From contig NZ_CP080519.1 of assembly GCF_019468465.1 (NCBI RefSeq), positions 1,937,001 through 2,001,000 of the forward strand: a stretch of 64,000 nt of DNA. Reading direction: 5' to 3'. The position numbers and the translations under genes were made by a program. Each line of letters begins with the position of its first letter. Position 1 is the first letter of the stretch. Source of the DNA: Amycolatopsis sp. DSM 110486. Lineage in GTDB: Bacteria; Actinomycetota; Actinomycetes; Mycobacteriales; Pseudonocardiaceae. This document shows, in pieces, positions 5,064 through 25,514 of the stretch. The notes under the pieces are model-generated. The model had not been told where the DNA came from and made no database searches. It was given only the letters and a program-made list of their open reading frames with translations.

Positions 5064-6658
5064 CCGCGCGCTCCTTCGGTCGTTTTTCCGGGCAGCAGCA
5101 TGCCGAACACGGCGGCCAGCACCCACACCGCCACCCCGGCGAAGGCGGCGACCGTGTAGCCGAGGGCGTTCGGGAAGTGTCGGCCGCCCGGCGTGTGCCC
5201 GACGAGGATCGCGGCGCTGAGCGCGCTGCCGGTGGAGTAGCCGACGTAGCGCAGCACCTGGTTGAAGCTCATCGCGCTGCCGGTCTCGTGCGCGGGCGTC
5301 CCGCGCGTGATCATGCCGGGCAGCACGGCGAAAACCGTGCCGACGGCGAGCCCCGTGGCCGCCATGACGACGATGAGCACCACGTAGTCGTGGCGCACGA
5401 AGCCGAACACGCCGACGCTCACCAGACCGACCAGCGAAGCCCCGGGGATCAGCACGCGCCCCCGCCCCCGCCGGATCACCGGCGGCGCGATGCGGCTGGC
5501 GAGCAGGCTCCCGATCGAGAACGGCAGCAACACCAGCCCGGCCACCACCACGGACCCGCCGAGCCCGCCGTCGGCCGGCGGCGTCTGGACGAACTGCACC
5601 ATCAACGACGTCAGCAGATACATCCCCGTGCCGGACAACAGCGCCGCGACGTCGGCCGCGAGCACCCCCGGCAGCCGCAACAACCGCAGCTCCACCAGCG
5701 GGTGGCTGCTGCGTCCCTCGTGCCACACCCACGCCACCAGCGCGCCCACCGCGATGATCACCGATCCGACCGACGCGCCCGAACCCCAGCCCCACTCCTC
5801 ACCCTTGCTGATCCACAGCAGCAACGCGCCCAGCCCCACCCCCAGCAGAACCGCCCCCGGCACGTCGAGCCGCTTCGCCTCGGCGTTCACGGCATGGGGC
5901 ACCACTTTGATGGCCGCCACCAGCGCAACCGCCGCCACGACAGCCCCGAACCAGTAAGCGGCCTGCAGCCCACCCAGCTCCGTGATCAGCCCGGTCACCG
6001 GATACCCGAGCCCGACCCCGGCGACCGTCGTGATCGACAAGATCGCCATCGTCGGCCGCGCCTTCGCGGGCACCAACGCTTCCCGGGCCGCCACGATCGT
6101 CAGCGGCGTCAGCCCCAGCCCCGCGCCCTGCAATCCGCGCCCCACCAGCAACGCCACGAACCCGAACGGCAACGCCGCCAGCACACACCCCAGCACCACC
6201 AGCCCCAGCCCGACCAGGATCACGCCCCGCCGCGCCGGCCCGTCGCCGAGCCGCCCCATCACCGGCGTGACCATCGCCCCGACCACCAACGTCACCGTCA
6301 ACGACCACTGCGCATCCCCCAGCGACACCCCGTGCACCACGGCCACCGCCGGAATCAGCGGCGCCCCCAGGCTGCTGATCACCGCCACGACGAGCCCGAG
6401 GAACACCAACGTGGGCACCAACCCACGCGCGGCTCGCTCAGCCGCGCGACTCTCGGCTACTTCCCTTGTGGCGCGCACGGACCTCGCGGCCGGCACGTCA
6501 AGAACGGGCCCGCCCAATCCCGACCTCGGACCGCGCACCTGCGAGGCAGCCTCGCCCGCGCCGCTCGCGGAGCACTGCGGTGCGTCGCCAGACCCGGGCG
6601 CAGGGCACTCGGGCATCTCGCCCGACGCGCGTACAGAACGCTCGTGCTGCCCGCTCAC
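5060..6658 (-). CDS. MFS drug-efflux-type transporter with long low-complexity N-terminus
   Basis: 532 residues if begun at the ATG at 6658. The first about 80 residues are Ala/Arg/Gly/Ser-rich and unlike a transporter. The membrane part starts at LVPTLVFLGLVVAVISS and runs through about 14 predicted helices. It contains the motif-A-like GRLGDGPARRG and a GRGLQGAGLGLTPL motif-C-like segment, which suggests a DHA2-type proton antiporter exporting a toxic compound. A start nearer the first helix is possible. The ATG at 6658 overlaps a 68-codon upstream frame that has its own good ribosome site (see 6655-6861). Confidence 0.8.
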   Translation of the reverse strand: MSGQHERSVRASGEMPECPAPGSGDAPQCSASGAGEAASQVRGPRSGLGGPVLDVPAARSVRATREVAESRAAERAARGLVPTLVFLGLVVAVISSLGAPLIPAVAVVHGVSLGDAQWSLTVTLVVGAMVTPVMGRLGDGPARRGVILVGLGLVVLGCVLAALPFGFVALLVGRGLQGAGLGLTPLTIVAAREALVPAKARPTMAILSITTVAGVGLGYPVTGLITELGGLQAAYWFGAVVAAVALVAAIKVVPHAVNAEAKRLDVPGAVLLGVGLGALLLWISKGEEWGWGSGASVGSVIIAVGALVAWVWHEGRSSHPLVELRLLRLPGVLAADVAALLSGTGMYLLTSLMVQFVQTPPADGGLGGSVVVAGLVLLPFSIGSLLASRIAPPVIRRGRGRVLIPGASLVGLVSVGVFGFVRHDYVVLIVVMAATGLAVGTVFAVLPGMITRGTPAHETGSAMSFNQVLRYVGYSTGSALSAAILVGHTPGGRHFPNALGYTVAAFAGVAVWVLAAVFGMLLPGKTTEGARG

Positions 6659-6947: not shown

Positions 6948-7457
6948 TCAGCCGAAGTGGACCACCTCGCTCGAGGCCAGAGAGGCGCCCGCGGTGGCCA
7001 GTTCGGCGGTAACCGCCGCGGAGGTCTCCGCAGCGGGGACGGAGCCGTCGTAGGTCGCGTGGGCGTCGGTGACCAAGGTGACCGGGTGGCCGCGCCGGAG
7101 GGCTTCCAGCGTCGTCTCGCGCACGCAGAAGTCGCTCTGCATGCCGGCGACGACGAGGGGCGCGCCGGCGGGCACGAGGGTCGACAGAGGGGTGTCGGCG
7201 AAGGAGTCGGGTGTGGTCTTGTCCACCACGTGTTCGCCCGGAAAGACGTCGTGGATCAAGGTCCAGCCCGGCGTTCCGGGCACGTCGGGATCGTCGCCGG
7301 TGCCGTTGTTGCGCACGTGCACCACCGGCGCGCCGGCGGCACGCGCGCGGGAAAGCACCGCGGCGATCGCCGGGGCGACGGTGGCCGCGGAAGGCACCGG
7401 TTCGGGCGGGAGGAGCATGTTGTTCTGGACGTCGATCAACAGCAGTACGGGGACCAT
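6948..7457 (-). CDS. Isochorismatase-family cysteine hydrolase
   Basis: 169 residues; a compact member of the cysteine hydrolase superfamily (nicotinamidase / isochorismatase / N-carbamoylsarcosine amidase fold). The catalytic triad is visible as Asp9 (LLIDVQNN), Lys80 (VVDKTTPDSF) and Cys111 (QSDFCVRET), in the right order and spacing. Members hydrolyse amides, ureido compounds or vinyl ethers; the substrate is not assignable here. Short intergenic stretches on both sides suggest it is transcribed alone. Confidence 0.88.
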   Translation of the reverse strand: MVPVLLLIDVQNNMLLPPEPVPSAATVAPAIAAVLSRARAAGAPVVHVRNNGTGDDPDVPGTPGWTLIHDVFPGEHVVDKTTPDSFADTPLSTLVPAGAPLVVAGMQSDFCVRETTLEALRRGHPVTLVTDAHATYDGSVPAAETSAAVTAELATAGASLASSEVVHFG

Positions 7458-7850: not shown

Positions 7851-9317
7851 ATGATCATCATGAAGAAGCTCGTCCCGTTGCTGGCGGTCGCCATCGCACT
7901 GCCTGCGGTCGTCGCGGCCACGCCCGCGCACGCGGCCCTCGCCTGGACCCCGTGCCGCACCCTGATCAAGGAGTGGGACCAGACCGACGCGCGCACCGAG
8001 TGCGCGAAGGTCTCCGTTCCGCTCGACTACGCCCACCCCGACGGCCGCCGCCTCGACCTGATGGTCAGCCGGCTGAAGGCGACGTCGCCGGAGAAGCGCC
8101 AGGGGGTGATCGTCGTGAACCCCGGCGGGCCGGGCAACTCCGGGCTCGACATGCCGCTCACCCTGAGCCACACGACCGTGGCGGGCATGGGCGTGGACCA
8201 CGACATCGTGGGCTTCGACCCGCGCGGTGTCGGGTTCAGCGGCGGCAAGGAGTGCGACGTCGCTCCGGAGGACGGCCCGAATCCCGACCCGAGCGCGCCG
8301 CCCGCCGAGCAGTACCGGCAGGGCTACGAGCAGACGGCCAAGCAGAACGCCCGCTGCACCGCGTACGACCCGGAGTTCATCGCGAGCCTGTCGACCGACG
8401 TCGTCGCTCGCGACCTCGACCAGATCCGGATCGCGCTGGGCGAGCAGAAGATCAGCTTCTACGGGGTGTCCTGGGGCACCGCTCTCGGCGCTGTGTATCG
8501 CAGCCGCTACGACCAGCACGTCGATCGCATGCTGCTCGACTCCGTGATGCCGCCCGACTTCAGCCTCCGCACGATGAACAACGGCCAGGTCGACGCCGCC
8601 GAAGCCAACTTCTCCCGCTTCGCCGCCTGGCTCGCCGCGCGCGACGGCCAGTACCACCTCGGCACCGACGCCGCGAAGATCCGCACCGACGTCACCGCCC
8701 TCGCCGCCGACCTCGACGCCCACCCGCGCCAGGTCACCGCCGACGGCAAACCGCTCACGTTCAGCGGCGGCAACCTCCGCACCGTGCTGACCTACCAGCA
8801 ATCCCACTGGCCCGACATGGCCGACACCCTCACCGCCCTGCGCGACGGCAAGAACCCGCCGCTCGTCGGGAACGAGCCGGAGTTCACCGGGCTCGGCCTC
8901 GAGGACAGCCACTTCGCCGGCTTGCTCATGCAGGTTTCCGTGCTGTGCAACGACCAGGGCGCCGACCCGAGCGAACCCGCCATGTGGCGCGAGGAGCAGC
9001 AGCGGCAGGCTTCGTCACCGCTGTTCCACGGCATGGCCGGCTACCAGCACTGGTGCGCGGGGTGGCCGTTGCCGAAGCAGCCGTGGCACCTGGTTCGCGG
9101 GACGAGCCCGCTGCAACTGGTGGCCCACCGCACGGAGACGACCACCCCGGCGTCTTGGGCGCAGGACATGCGCCGCCACCTCGGCGGTTCGCTCCTGACC
9201 GTCGACAACGGCGCGCACGGCTCCCTCGACCTCGTGGCGTGCGGGTCGAAGGCGGTGGAGTTCTTCAGCACCGGGCGGACTGCCACGGGCAGCTGCCCGG
9301 GCGAGCCGGCGATTTAG
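7851..9317 (+). CDS. Secreted alpha/beta hydrolase, tripeptidyl aminopeptidase-like (S33)
   Basis: 488 residues. A Sec signal peptide (MKKLVPLLAVAIALP...) ends at THE AHA-type site TPAHA near residue 29; the ATG at 7860 would give the same protein minus three residues. The fold is the S33/TAP type: oxyanion region VNPGGPGNSGLDMP, DIVGFDPRGVGFS, nucleophile elbow YGVSWGTALG, and a C-terminal TAP-like domain ending in the His-containing NGAHGSLDL. Streptomyces relatives cleave tripeptides or proline-containing peptides outside the cell. A strong terminator follows at once. Confidence 0.88.
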   Translation: MIIMKKLVPLLAVAIALPAVVAATPAHAALAWTPCRTLIKEWDQTDARTECAKVSVPLDYAHPDGRRLDLMVSRLKATSPEKRQGVIVVNPGGPGNSGLDMPLTLSHTTVAGMGVDHDIVGFDPRGVGFSGGKECDVAPEDGPNPDPSAPPAEQYRQGYEQTAKQNARCTAYDPEFIASLSTDVVARDLDQIRIALGEQKISFYGVSWGTALGAVYRSRYDQHVDRMLLDSVMPPDFSLRTMNNGQVDAAEANFSRFAAWLAARDGQYHLGTDAAKIRTDVTALAADLDAHPRQVTADGKPLTFSGGNLRTVLTYQQSHWPDMADTLTALRDGKNPPLVGNEPEFTGLGLEDSHFAGLLMQVSVLCNDQGADPSEPAMWREEQQRQASSPLFHGMAGYQHWCAGWPLPKQPWHLVRGTSPLQLVAHRTETTTPASWAQDMRRHLGGSLLTVDNGAHGSLDLVACGSKAVEFFSTGRTATGSCPGEPAI

Positions 9318-22176: not shown

Positions 22177-22211
22177 GTCTTGAGGTCAAGAGAGTCCGCG
22201 CGTGGCCCGTG

Positions 22212-22721
22212 TCACCCACCGGAACACACCAGGTGAACGACCTGCCCGACCCCGAAGATCTCGTGCCGCCGCCCGCTGGCCCTGAACCCCACACGCCGAT
22301 ACAACGCGAGCGCCCGCTCATTGGCGACACCGGTCCACAACTGCAGCCGGCTCTGTCCCCTACCCGCAGCGCACGCTTTCAGCACACCCAGCAACGCCGC
22401 GCCCACTCCCGCACCCCAGCGCTCCGGCCGCACGAACACCATCGAGACGTGACACAGCCCCGGCTCCACCGGCCCCCGCCCGTCTTCCGCCCGCCCCGCC
22501 TCGGCCAACACCATCCCGACGACGCACCCGCCCTCCACCGCCACGAGCACCAGCGCTTCAGGATCCGCCAACTTCTCCCGCACCCGCTCCACCCGCTCCG
22601 TCCCAGGCACCTTGCCGCGCGCAACATTGGCCGCACGCCAACACTCCCGCGCCTCTTCAAGCTCAGCGACAGTCACTGCGACCCGAACTTCGACCATGGC
22701 CTCATCGACTCCACGTCCCAT
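22212..22721 (-). CDS. GNAT-family N-acetyltransferase
   Basis: 169 residues from the ATG at 22721, preferred because GGGAGG lies 7 nt upstream; the ATG at 22697 is an alternative. The acetyl-CoA-binding motif appears as CHVSMVFVRPERWGAGVGAAL, followed by ANERALALYRRVGFRASG. Substrate unknown. Its mRNA leader is extremely G-rich (see 22828-22860). It diverges from the reverse transcriptase gene across about 400 bp. Confidence 0.85.
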   Translation of the reverse strand: MGRGVDEAMVEVRVAVTVAELEEARECWRAANVARGKVPGTERVERVREKLADPEALVLVAVEGGCVVGMVLAEAGRAEDGRGPVEPGLCHVSMVFVRPERWGAGVGAALLGVLKACAAGRGQSRLQLWTGVANERALALYRRVGFRASGRRHEIFGVGQVVHLVCSGG

Positions 22722-22827
22722 CAGCACCTCCCACCGCAACCCGACCACACCCCACCGCTGCCCATCACACAACGCCGGCCGGCGCCGCCCTTGCCACCCC
22801 TCAACCCCCACCCGGCAACACAACTCA

Positions 22828-22860
22828 CCCCCCACCCACCCCTCCCCGCACCCTTCCCCC
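22828..22860 (-). other. G-quadruplex-prone tract in the GNAT leader
   Basis: Read on the minus strand, this stretch has runs of 5, 4, 4, 4, 3 and 6 guanines separated by 1-3 nt, well beyond a minimal four-run G4 motif. The whole 22735-22880 stretch is strongly purine/pyrimidine-biased between strands. Folding is inferred. Confidence 0.5.
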
Positions 22861-22941
22861 GGCCGGCCCCCGATGTCTTTCCAAAACGCGGTCTGACAAT
22901 CAAAAATCGGGGTGCCCACCACCCACCAATCGGGCGCAATG

Positions 22942-23111
22942 GTGTGCGCAGCACGCCGAGCCGCCACCCGCTTCCCCCAAAGCCCCTAAACTCGACCACC
23001 GGCGACGCGGGAGGTGAGCCCGGTGGAGAACCACCCCTTCCGGGGCAACCCCGGAACGCACCACATCACCCGATCACAGCGCCCCACGCGAGGGCGGCAC
23101 GCTGCGCGTAC
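22942..23111 (+). ncRNA. Candidate structured RNA upstream of the reverse transcriptase (retron msr-msd-like)
   Basis: 22942-22952 can pair with 23101-23111 (11 bp, two G-U pairs). After a 2x2 internal loop, 22955-22958 pairs with 23095-23098. This long end stem encloses about 136 nt with two more hairpins: CCACCGG/CCGGTGG (22996-23002 with 23020-23026) and the perfect TTCCGGGG-CAA-CCCCGGAA (23038-23056). A closing a1/a2 stem just upstream of the RT is the layout of retron ncRNA, but the pairing was found by eye in GC-rich DNA and no branching guanosine was identified with confidence. Confidence 0.35.
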
Positions 23112-23123
23112 AAGACCGCGCGG

Positions 23124-24233
23124 ATGAACGGAGAAAGAGTCACCCCCGCGTCGCCGACCAACCCAGCCAACCCAGCCGAGCACACAAAGCCGTTCGGCCC
23201 CCAAGAACCATCCCTCCTAGACCCCCTCCCCCCGATCTGGCGCTGGCAAGTCCCCCACTGGCCCACCTTCGAATCCTGCGCCGCAGCCCTGGACCTCACC
23301 CCAGGCGAACTCTCCTGGTTCTCCGACCCCCGCCACTGGAACGACCGCGCCAACCACACTCTCCGCCACTACCACCACCGCTGGATCCCCACCTCCACCG
23401 GCGGCCTCCGCCTCATCGAACGCCCCAAACCGCGCCTGGCGGAACTCCAACGGCGCATCCGCCGGCACGTCCTCACCGCCCTGCCGGTCCACGACGCCGC
23501 CCACGGCTTCCACCCCGGCCGCTCCATCCTCACGTGCGCGCAACCCCACGCGGGCCAGGACAAAGTCATCCGCATGGACCTCGAGCACTTCTTCCCCACC
23601 GTCTCCGCCCGCCGGATCCGCTCACTGCTCGAACTGGCCGGCTACCCACCCGCCGTCGCCCAGGCCCTGGCCGGAATCCTCACCACGACCACGCCACCGG
23701 TCGTCCTCAAAAACGCACCCAGAAAAGTCCGCGACCAACTCAAAAAACCGCACCTTCCGCAAGGTGCACCCTCATCCCCAGCCGTCGCGAACGCCGTCAC
23801 CAACCGCCTCGACCGAAGGCTCTCGGGCCTGGCACAAAAACTCGGCGCGAACTACACCCGCTACGCCGACGACCTCGCCTTCTCCGGCGAAGCCACCCTC
23901 CCCCTCCACCGCCTGTTCCCCGGCGTCCGCCGAATCGTCGAAGACGAAGGCTTCCGCCTGCGCGACGACAAAACCTCCGTCGCAGCCAAGCACCAGCGCC
24001 AGCGCGTGGCCGGCCTCGTCGTCAACACCAAACCCGCGGCCCAGCGCACCTACTACGACGACCTCCGCGCCACTCTCCACAACTGCGCGACAACCGGCCC
24101 CCAGGCGCAGAACCACGCCGGCCACCCCGATTTCCAGGCCCACCTGCGAGGCCGCATCGCCTGGATCTCCGCGACGAGCGCGCCCCGAGGTGTCAAGCTG
24201 AAAGAGCTCTTCGACCGAATCGATTGGAGCTGA
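23124..24233 (+). CDS. Retron-like reverse transcriptase
   Basis: 369 residues. RT motifs in order: the X-region-like CAQPH (residues 138-142; retrons have NAxxH), catalytic RMDLEHFFPTV (150-160), LPQGAPSSPAVAN (211-223), YTRYADDLAFSG with YADD at 247-250, and VAGLVVN (295-301) in place of the retron VTG region. All three catalytic Asps are present. The start at 23124 is inferred; the ribosome site is weak and the first about 30 residues are Pro-rich. There is no maturase or integrase domain, so it is not a group II intron protein. A cupin gene starts 2 nt after the stop. Retron RTs make branched multicopy ssDNA for phage defence; that role here is inference. Confidence 0.85.
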   Translation: MNGERVTPASPTNPANPAEHTKPFGPQEPSLLDPLPPIWRWQVPHWPTFESCAAALDLTPGELSWFSDPRHWNDRANHTLRHYHHRWIPTSTGGLRLIERPKPRLAELQRRIRRHVLTALPVHDAAHGFHPGRSILTCAQPHAGQDKVIRMDLEHFFPTVSARRIRSLLELAGYPPAVAQALAGILTTTTPPVVLKNAPRKVRDQLKKPHLPQGAPSSPAVANAVTNRLDRRLSGLAQKLGANYTRYADDLAFSGEATLPLHRLFPGVRRIVEDEGFRLRDDKTSVAAKHQRQRVAGLVVNTKPAAQRTYYDDLRATLHNCATTGPQAQNHAGHPDFQAHLRGRIAWISATSAPRGVKLKELFDRIDWS

Positions 24234-24659: not shown

Positions 24660-25151
24660 TCACGCCAGCAGCGGGCAGAGGGTCCGCTCGAGCTCGGCCC
24701 ACGAACCGACCGGCGCCGCGCCGGGGTCGACGTCACGCGCCTGGATGTCGCCGGCGCGCTGCGCCAGGTCGAAGCGGTTCTCGCGCCACGCGTAGGCCAG
24801 CAGGTCGTCGTACTGCGTGCGGGGCAGCCAGCCCTGCTCGCGCCCGACCTCGAGGCGCATCAGGTGGAACACGAGCTCGACGCTGCCCGGGTCCAGACCA
24901 CGCAATCGTCGCGCGAACCCCTGCGCCGCGTCGAGGTTTCCCTCTTGGAACGCCGTGTAGGCCAGGAAAAGCGCCGTCGCGGCCATCACGTCGGAACGGT
25001 GCAGGCCACCTTCGGCTGCGAGGTGCTCGGCGATCCGGAAGCTGCGGCCGCCCTCACCGAAACCCCCGTCGGACTCCACCGCCTCGGCCAGCGCACGCTG
25101 CTGGCGCGTGAGGTAGTCGTCCGCTAAATCCACCCTGCTTGCATTCATCAT
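24660..25151 (-). CDS. Conserved hypothetical protein, unrecognised
   Basis: 163 residues starting MMNASRVDLADDYL behind a strong GGGGAGGGG ribosome site. The helical sequence has ATALFLAYTAFQEGNLDAAQGFARRLRGLD, which looks like a tetratricopeptide-type helix pair. Acidic overall, no signal peptide or membrane segment. It is convergent with the cupin gene, with 7 nt between the stops. Confidence 0.65.
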   Translation of the reverse strand: MMNASRVDLADDYLTRQQRALAEAVESDGGFGEGGRSFRIAEHLAAEGGLHRSDVMAATALFLAYTAFQEGNLDAAQGFARRLRGLDPGSVELVFHLMRLEVGREQGWLPRTQYDDLLAYAWRENRFDLAQRAGDIQARDVDPGAAPVGSWAELERTLCPLLA

Positions 25152-25514
25152 CGAAACCCCTCCCCTCAGCCGAGCTTTCACCCGACTGCTCCTCTGCACA
25201 AGATGTTACGGCGGAGTGGCAGATACATCGAATGCCCCAACGCCTTCCTCCGTTAGAAGGTTGGGGAGTCACGAAGTGTGCTCAGAGGCCCGTGATTTGG
25301 CCCCTCCGGCCGACCGGATGGGGTAACTTCGGGCAAGATCAAAGCGAGCGAGGGCACCATCCCGGACGAAACGTTCACTTCCGCCGAAGTGGTCATCTCG
25401 CTGGTCGGTTGCAAGATCGGTCCTCTTCGGAACGCACAGATGGTTCGCAGGGGCAACGAAAATTCCCCATCCGACCCGGAGTCCTCCGTGGACTCGCCCG
25501 GCTACCGTGCAGTA
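25152..25514. other. Intergenic region with one hairpin
   Basis: 363 bp between two divergent genes. The only structure seen is CCCCAA-CG-CCTTC paired with GAAGG-TTGGGG (25235-25266). It may hold promoters for both genes. The extended frames through here do not look coding. Confidence 0.45.

Follow-up and report, generated by a model that had tools for sequence, protein, structure and literature searches.

A candidate two-part retron in Amycolatopsis: a covarying msr-msd RNA and a retron-class reverse transcriptase with no effector found at the locus

The locus and its reverse transcriptase

The window analysed here is a 64,000-nt stretch of the Amycolatopsis sp. DSM 110486 genome. On its forward strand lies a reverse transcriptase (RT) gene at 23124-24233, which encodes a 369-aa protein within a frame open from 22209 to 24233. 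Its ATG falls inside a structured leader RNA, directly 5' of which stands a -10-like box, TAAACT (22987-22992, forward strand), a putative promoter element.

The RT is matched best by the PADLOC profile RT_other (541.8 bits), followed by RT_outgroup (511.4 bits) and RT_XIII (332.2 bits), and the RT_other match starts at profile position 138 of 481. Pfam recognizes RVT_1 alone (66.4 bits), a second Pfam domain being absent. Models of other RT classes stay below their cut-offs: 49.7 bits where the NCBI group II maturase model requires 300, 27.6 where the curated Drt2 model requires 390, and 20.5 where Drt3a requires 200. A preliminary description had reported an RT with YADD, CAQPH, and VAGLVVN elements and no maturase domain; these elements are encoded at this place, and the group II score and Pfam content agree with the lack of a maturase domain. 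A PHROGs search with the RT matched a phage 'polymerase' family at 172.3 bits, and a search of genome contigs returned four distant relatives.

In an RT tree of 28 rows, which contains few references and some long branches, the window RT falls in a clade of 14 (support 99/99) within a set of 25 rows, from which three group II RTs split at 100/100. Profile search and phylogenetic placement thus group it with retron RTs and apart from group II RTs. The predicted structure has a mean pLDDT of 88.7, and its top 18 Foldseek matches are all retron RT chains, with RTs of other kinds ranking below these. Ec86 comes first (7v9x_A, E 2.6e-20, TM 0.61 by query).

The YADD motif is present in 70/70 family RTs with a called gene. 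Across 54 relatives, region X (NAXXH; CAQPH in the window) keeps A and H in every sequence and N in none, and region Y (VTG; VAG in the window) keeps G in all 54 and T in 8. Among the published retron RTs treated in section 13 of one survey, N occurs in 62%, A in 87%, H in 100%, and VTG in 47% (PMC4244168). Judged by profile, tree, and predicted fold, the window RT is a retron RT.

Structure of the msr-msd RNA

In an alignment of 30 loci from the genus, a sharply delimited conserved block spans about 22999-23155 and is bounded by an inverted repeat, GGCGACGCGGGAGGTGA (23001-23017) and TCACCCCCGCGTCGCC (23140-23155), that the preliminary description missed. On this comparative evidence, the msr-msd RNA is the segment of about 23001-23155, closed by the pairing of its 5' arm a1 (23001-23017) with its 3' arm a2 (23140-23155), the latter inside the RT reading frame. 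The redrawn forward-strand RNA has two msr hairpins, at 23022-23035 (23022-23026 with 23031-23035) and 23038-23056 (23038-23045 with 23049-23056), and one msd hairpin at 23084-23123, with an outer stem of 23084-23091 and 23116-23123 and an inner stem of 23097-23102 and 23106-23111.

Over 43 sequences sampled throughout the family, 91.8% of cells are paired, 25 of the 43 pairs are changed on both sides, and there are 93 doubly changed cells, values that none of 500 shuffles reach. The closing stem is paired in 94.9% of cells, with 9 of 16 pairs doubly changed; the corresponding values are 80.9% and 4/5 for msr hairpin 1, 100% and 3/8 for msr hairpin 2, 86.6% and 6/8 for the msd outer stem, and 89.1% and 3/6 for the msd inner stem. 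Sliding the partners by 1 to 3 columns lowers pairing to at most 55.2%, a comparison that favours the redrawn structure somewhat because it was written after the sequences were seen. The double changes are the stronger evidence for the proposed fold. RNAalifold, with double changes at 10 of its 31 pairs, recovers msr hairpin 2 as well as the closing stem, omits msr hairpin 1, and pairs the msd region another way. The msd, where an A-C mismatch interrupts the stem in 24 of the 43 sequences, is the part of the structure of which we are least sure.

These 43 sequences form alignment A1, chosen from 69 extracted leaders; the 26 omitted are near-copies and weak matches, including all nine g5 loci. 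A1 retains three rows truncated at the 5' end, the gapped L035, and L051, which appears misaligned at its 5' end. Covariance model R1, built from A1 with the window among its sequences, matches the window at 22989-23167 (forward strand) with 135.2 bits and an E-value of 1.2e-23. The A1-built model then detects all nine g5 loci, three of them over part of the model (E 2.3e-11 to 8.5e-5). L035 (G319) has an RNA at 7942-8092 that has lost length in both msr hairpin 2 and the linker; the RT frame next to it is open. No Rfam family reaches its gathering score anywhere in the 64,000-nt window.

Two sequence features at the 5' end suggest how the RNA may be made and used. A GAGC follows a1 at about 23017-23020 in the alignment; one report on myxobacterial retrons gives GAGC as the priming context of Retron-Mxa2 (PMC6868368), and by this analogy G23018 is the predicted priming, or branching, base. 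Of 69 loci, 53 have the pattern TANNNT within the 25 nt that precede a1, compared with 11 of 1380 random 25-nt segments taken 60-1500 nt further upstream, most of which will be in genes.

The preliminary description had also placed a structured leader directly 5' of the RT, which stands, and had closed it by pairing 22942-22952 with 23101-23111, which does not. That stem is complete (11 of 11 pairs, counting G-U) in the window and its sister G010, and it forms 0 to 6 of 11 pairs in the remaining 28 of the 30 aligned loci. Its 5' arm lies upstream of both the conserved RNA and the -10-like box, and its 3' arm lies within the redrawn msd hairpin; with no support in relatives, it was rejected as the closing stem. 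The compensatory changes sought in relatives are instead found in the redrawn structure, whose closing stem extends into the beginning of the RT reading frame. When 22930-23130, which excludes the true 3' arm, is folded from the window sequence alone, the result is weakly above chance (z -1.89; 8 of 200 shuffles equally good). It is the comparison of relatives, rather than single-sequence folding, that decides the leader structure.

Start codon and protein forms

The ATG at 23124 is the sole ATG, GTG, or TTG in frame between the start of the conserved block and the RT core, and the RT is most likely translated from it, inside the RNA. Across the family, two forms of the gene can be told apart. 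In 34 of the 37 short forms, an ATG occurs at one shared position within the RNA, 32 nt short of its end; the remaining three (L106-L108) have a GTG or TTG after the RNA. At that position none of 27 long forms has an ATG; in L052 an in-frame ATG is displaced by two bases, and other long forms have in-frame codons nearby. The frame from RNA to RT core spans mostly 70 to 160 codons in long forms, compared with 30 in the window. Less than 200 nt separates RNA and core at 43 loci. The short forms, from the window's genus and g26, account for 37 of these; of the other six, five belong to g27 and retain N-terminal sequence, and the sixth, L054 (g19), is a short form distinct from the 37.

The additional N-terminal part of the long forms is predicted to be structured. 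In P0037, residues 3-74 are modelled as four helices, and the match of this protein to RT_other is nearly full-length and takes in the N-terminal part. Pfam, run on 10 long-form proteins, returned RVT_1 and chance-level matches, with no family for the N-terminal part, and a fold search with a whole long-form model gave RTs only among the 50 matches listed. The window's lineage is without this part, and residues 1-74 of P0037 may possibly represent a built-in partner that this lineage has lost.

Distribution of the RNA and RT

RT matches at E 0.001 or better occur in 40 of 80 genomes of the genus. Thirty-eight of these are strong (E 5.8e-132 or better); the other two are RT fragments in G009 and a different RT in G037. 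The covariance model finds full-length RNA in the same 38 genomes, 23 of which are represented in A1 and 15 of which lie outside it. As 42 of the 80 genomes are without the retron, it is dispensable. A partial RNA match of 41.8 bits occurs in G063. Weak partial RNA matches also occur away from the RT at G046:C40:160429-160487 (41.4 bits) and G022:C1:3204983-3205112 (32.9 bits), in genomes that also hold a full retron, and are relics or chance matches.

In the wider family, the RNA is found upstream of the RT at all 72 loci with at least 44% identity; the three others of the 75 loci considered (the window and L035-L108), namely L068, L069, and L070 at 28-33% identity, are without such an RNA and lie outside this count. 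Spacing varies, with the RNA more than 1 kb upstream in L063 and some 0.75 kb upstream in L067 and L072. As assembled, the RT gene is in two pieces at G135:C17:46757-47832, with a frame break, and at G088:C10:297320-298969, with an insertion of some 0.6 kb.

The RNA model also gives a match of 87.9 bits next to an RT relative on a Dietzia plasmid and one of 41.8 bits (E 9.7e-6) next to another on a Burkholderia replicon, indicating that transfer also happens. The latter relative, on a Burkholderia cenocepacia replicon (L130, 5543-7077), is a long form whose RNA match ends at 5730 and whose RT frame begins at 5731; genes around it resemble those for histidine use and transport, as read from their frames.

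Genomic site, descent, and loss

Where it can be recognized, the old site of the retron lies downstream of genes that we take to be imuA', imuB, and dnaE2; these names, like folD, UspA, and pentapeptide-repeat, were assigned by reading the sequences. The window's clade carries the retron at a second site. The old-site row of genes is present without a retron in 12 of the 13 retron-less genomes of the genus read there, and in the thirteenth, G054, dnaE2 is outside the stretch read. The window's own genome has the same row without a retron near 4.63 Mb (L109, G000:C1:4628000-4642000). There, 1.1 kb separates dnaE2 (ending at 7118) from the pentapeptide gene (starting at 8255), a gap in which the covariance model finds no RNA and which measures less than 0.1 kb in the sister G010. 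A tree of 43 RTs, with SH-aLRT as its sole support measure, includes 25 from the old site, 14 from the window's site, and 4 from other places. Those 14 group together (95), consistent with a single move.

RT and dnaE2 distances correlate with r 0.96 and a slope of 1.14 (33 loci, 7 genera; 0 of 2000 permutations as high), and with r 0.72 between genera alone (302 pairs). Given this correlation and the stable place, the retron appears to be inherited mainly by descent, a pattern that one report describes for myxobacterial retrons (PMC6868368). The RT has a dN/dS of 0.175 to its sister and a median of 0.24 over 621 genus pairs with dS of 0.05 to 1; by these sequence measures, the retron is under purifying selection.

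Losses can be seen in close relatives. At the window's site in G056 (L142), the GNAT and cupin genes are both retained, and between them are the final 25 RT codons (60% identity, E 2e-4). The covariance model finds no RNA in G056 at that site, so a worn RNA piece seen there by eye was discounted. This relic is a loss by deletion. The RNA piece in G063 lies at the old site, and the retron has been lost more than once.

Neighbouring genes

No neighbour gene that tracks the retron was found at the 70 loci or in the 80 genus genomes compared, with genes taken from a home-made codon-score caller that leaves out 5 of the 75 loci for want of a called RT. The most frequent neighbours belong to the old site. 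At 34 of the 70 loci, in 7 genera, a dnaE2-type gene precedes the retron by no more than a few genes, with imuB at 26 loci of this set and imuA' at 22. A pentapeptide-repeat gene is found at 30 loci in 5 genera, as the next gene in 28 and otherwise the next but one, and it overlaps in some loci. Its product was at first thought a likely effector. This candidate was rejected: the gene is present in 79 of the 80 genus genomes and the retron in 38, making it a neighbour by place.

A UspA-like gene, also considered as an effector, is the next gene in only 8 loci of 3 genera. The cupin and GNAT genes beside the window RT occur in 10 and 7 of the 80 genomes at the cut-offs used, and both persist in G056 beside the retron relic. 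On the reverse strand of the window, 24660-25199 encodes a 179-aa protein without a Pfam, NCBIfam, or PADLOC match; it adjoins or lies near the retron in 6 of the 70 loci.

Neighbour tracking found no effector at the locus, and Pfam found none fused to the RT. As judged from gene content, then, no effector gene belonging to the retron unit was found at this locus or at the family loci. The proposal of an actinobacterial retron with no recognised effector thus holds up, given the RT class, the covarying redrawn leader, and the lack of a tracking neighbour.

Interpretation

The reading we prefer, to which we give about an even chance, is that 23001-24233 is a two-part retron, consisting of a covarying msr-msd RNA and a retron-class RT, apparently passed on chiefly by descent and with no effector found. 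The transcript likely starts near a1, since the -10-like box lies directly before it. The RT would bind the msr and prime on G23018, and the msd would be copied from about 23139 back to about 23076, giving a branched msDNA of a predicted length of roughly 60 nt. Because the RT start at 23124 lies inside the RNA, a ribosome would have to open the closing stem, and RT translation and msDNA synthesis would compete on one molecule. As translation from 23124 and the closing stem would be mutually exclusive, the level of RT may be limited in a self-limiting loop.

For such a unit, the likeliest role would be as a sensor or sink, in the form of a resident particle of msDNA and protein whose effect is exerted by way of a host protein with its gene elsewhere. 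With no recognised killer gene beside the retron, textbook phage-triggered suicide is probably not its function. A more specific proposal is a domesticated retron of RNA and RT, in which the mutual exclusion of translation and msDNA synthesis keeps msDNA at a steady level for housekeeping rather than for infection suicide; we advance this tentatively, as a rather unlikely refinement.

A possible but doubtful alternative is that this is an ordinary anti-phage retron, tripartite but split, with the gene for its toxic effector elsewhere in the genome. Retrons are described in one recent paper as comprising an RT, an RNA, and a toxic effector (PMC12548924), and PADLOC, a defence database, lists this RT family as a retron. 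However, the adjoining genes do not track the retron, and no further gene accompanies it after the move to the second site or in the G056 relic.

That the retron is decaying and silent, kept solely by recent descent, is improbable. Relics do exist, as the last 25 RT codons in G056, the RNA piece in G063, and the RT fragments in G009, and the shortened RNA of L035 and the split RTs of G135 and G088 would also be in keeping with decay. The dN/dS values given above, the retention of YADD in every family RT with a called gene, and the compensatory changes in the RNA argue against it.

More improbable still is a retron that works with the neighbouring imuA'-imuB-dnaE2 mutasome, its msDNA serving in damage-induced mutagenesis or repair. 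The proximity of dnaE2 at 34 loci in 7 genera would favour such a link, but dnaE2 stands without the retron in nearly all retron-less genomes read, the two are apart in the window's clade, and the retron has its own -10-like box. In addition, neither of two SOS-like box patterns occurs within 300 nt upstream of the RNA at the loci scanned. The window's genome has no MutS_III match (control 11/14), which makes MutS titration unlikely here.

Finally, assignment of the RT to a group II, DRT, DGR, or Abi class is extremely improbable, since the replacement of NAXXH and VTG by CAQPH and VAG is set against profiles, tree, fold, and leader covariation, and both motifs vary among the retrons of the published survey (PMC4244168 section 13).

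Significance and comparison with known systems

Research on retrons has concentrated on systems with an accompanying toxin. In the present family the RNA and RT are defined, no effector was found at the locus, positions are for the most part stable, and close relatives have lost the retron naturally, so toxin-free retron function becomes directly testable in an ordinary soil actinomycete. The RNA may also serve as a high-GC msDNA scaffold for Actinomycetota. Retrons have been predicted in Actinobacteria before (PMC6868368), and the RT family is already catalogued in PADLOC as 'RT_other'. A literature search, limited mostly to titles and the openings of abstracts, found no work on this RNA or RT family or on a retron in connection with Amycolatopsis or pseudonocardia. 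As far as we can see, the new elements are the covarying RNA, the lack of an effector found across the family, the stable chromosomal site with one move, and the start codon in the RNA.

The window RT has its best profile fits with RT_other (PDLC02949; 541.8 bits) and RT_outgroup (PDLC03740; 511.4 bits). It differs from RT_other in being without the N-terminal part, and PADLOC lists neither an RNA nor an effector for that family. The third-best profile, Retron type XIII RT (PDLC02956), scores 332.2 bits, about 210 below RT_other. Retron-Eco1 (Ec86) is the best solved relative by both sequence (E 2.3e-28) and fold (E 2.6e-20), with 24-25% identity in the fold match; Ec86 was solved with an effector, whereas none was found here. 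Retron-Bth1 is reported as having no obvious effector and an unclassified RT (PMC12548924). Myxobacterial retrons such as Retron-Mxa1 (Mx162) and Retron-Mxa2 (Mx65) are described in PMC6868368 as vertically inherited, as the present retron mainly appears to be, and the priming of Mxa2 within GAGC resembles the priming predicted here at G23018.
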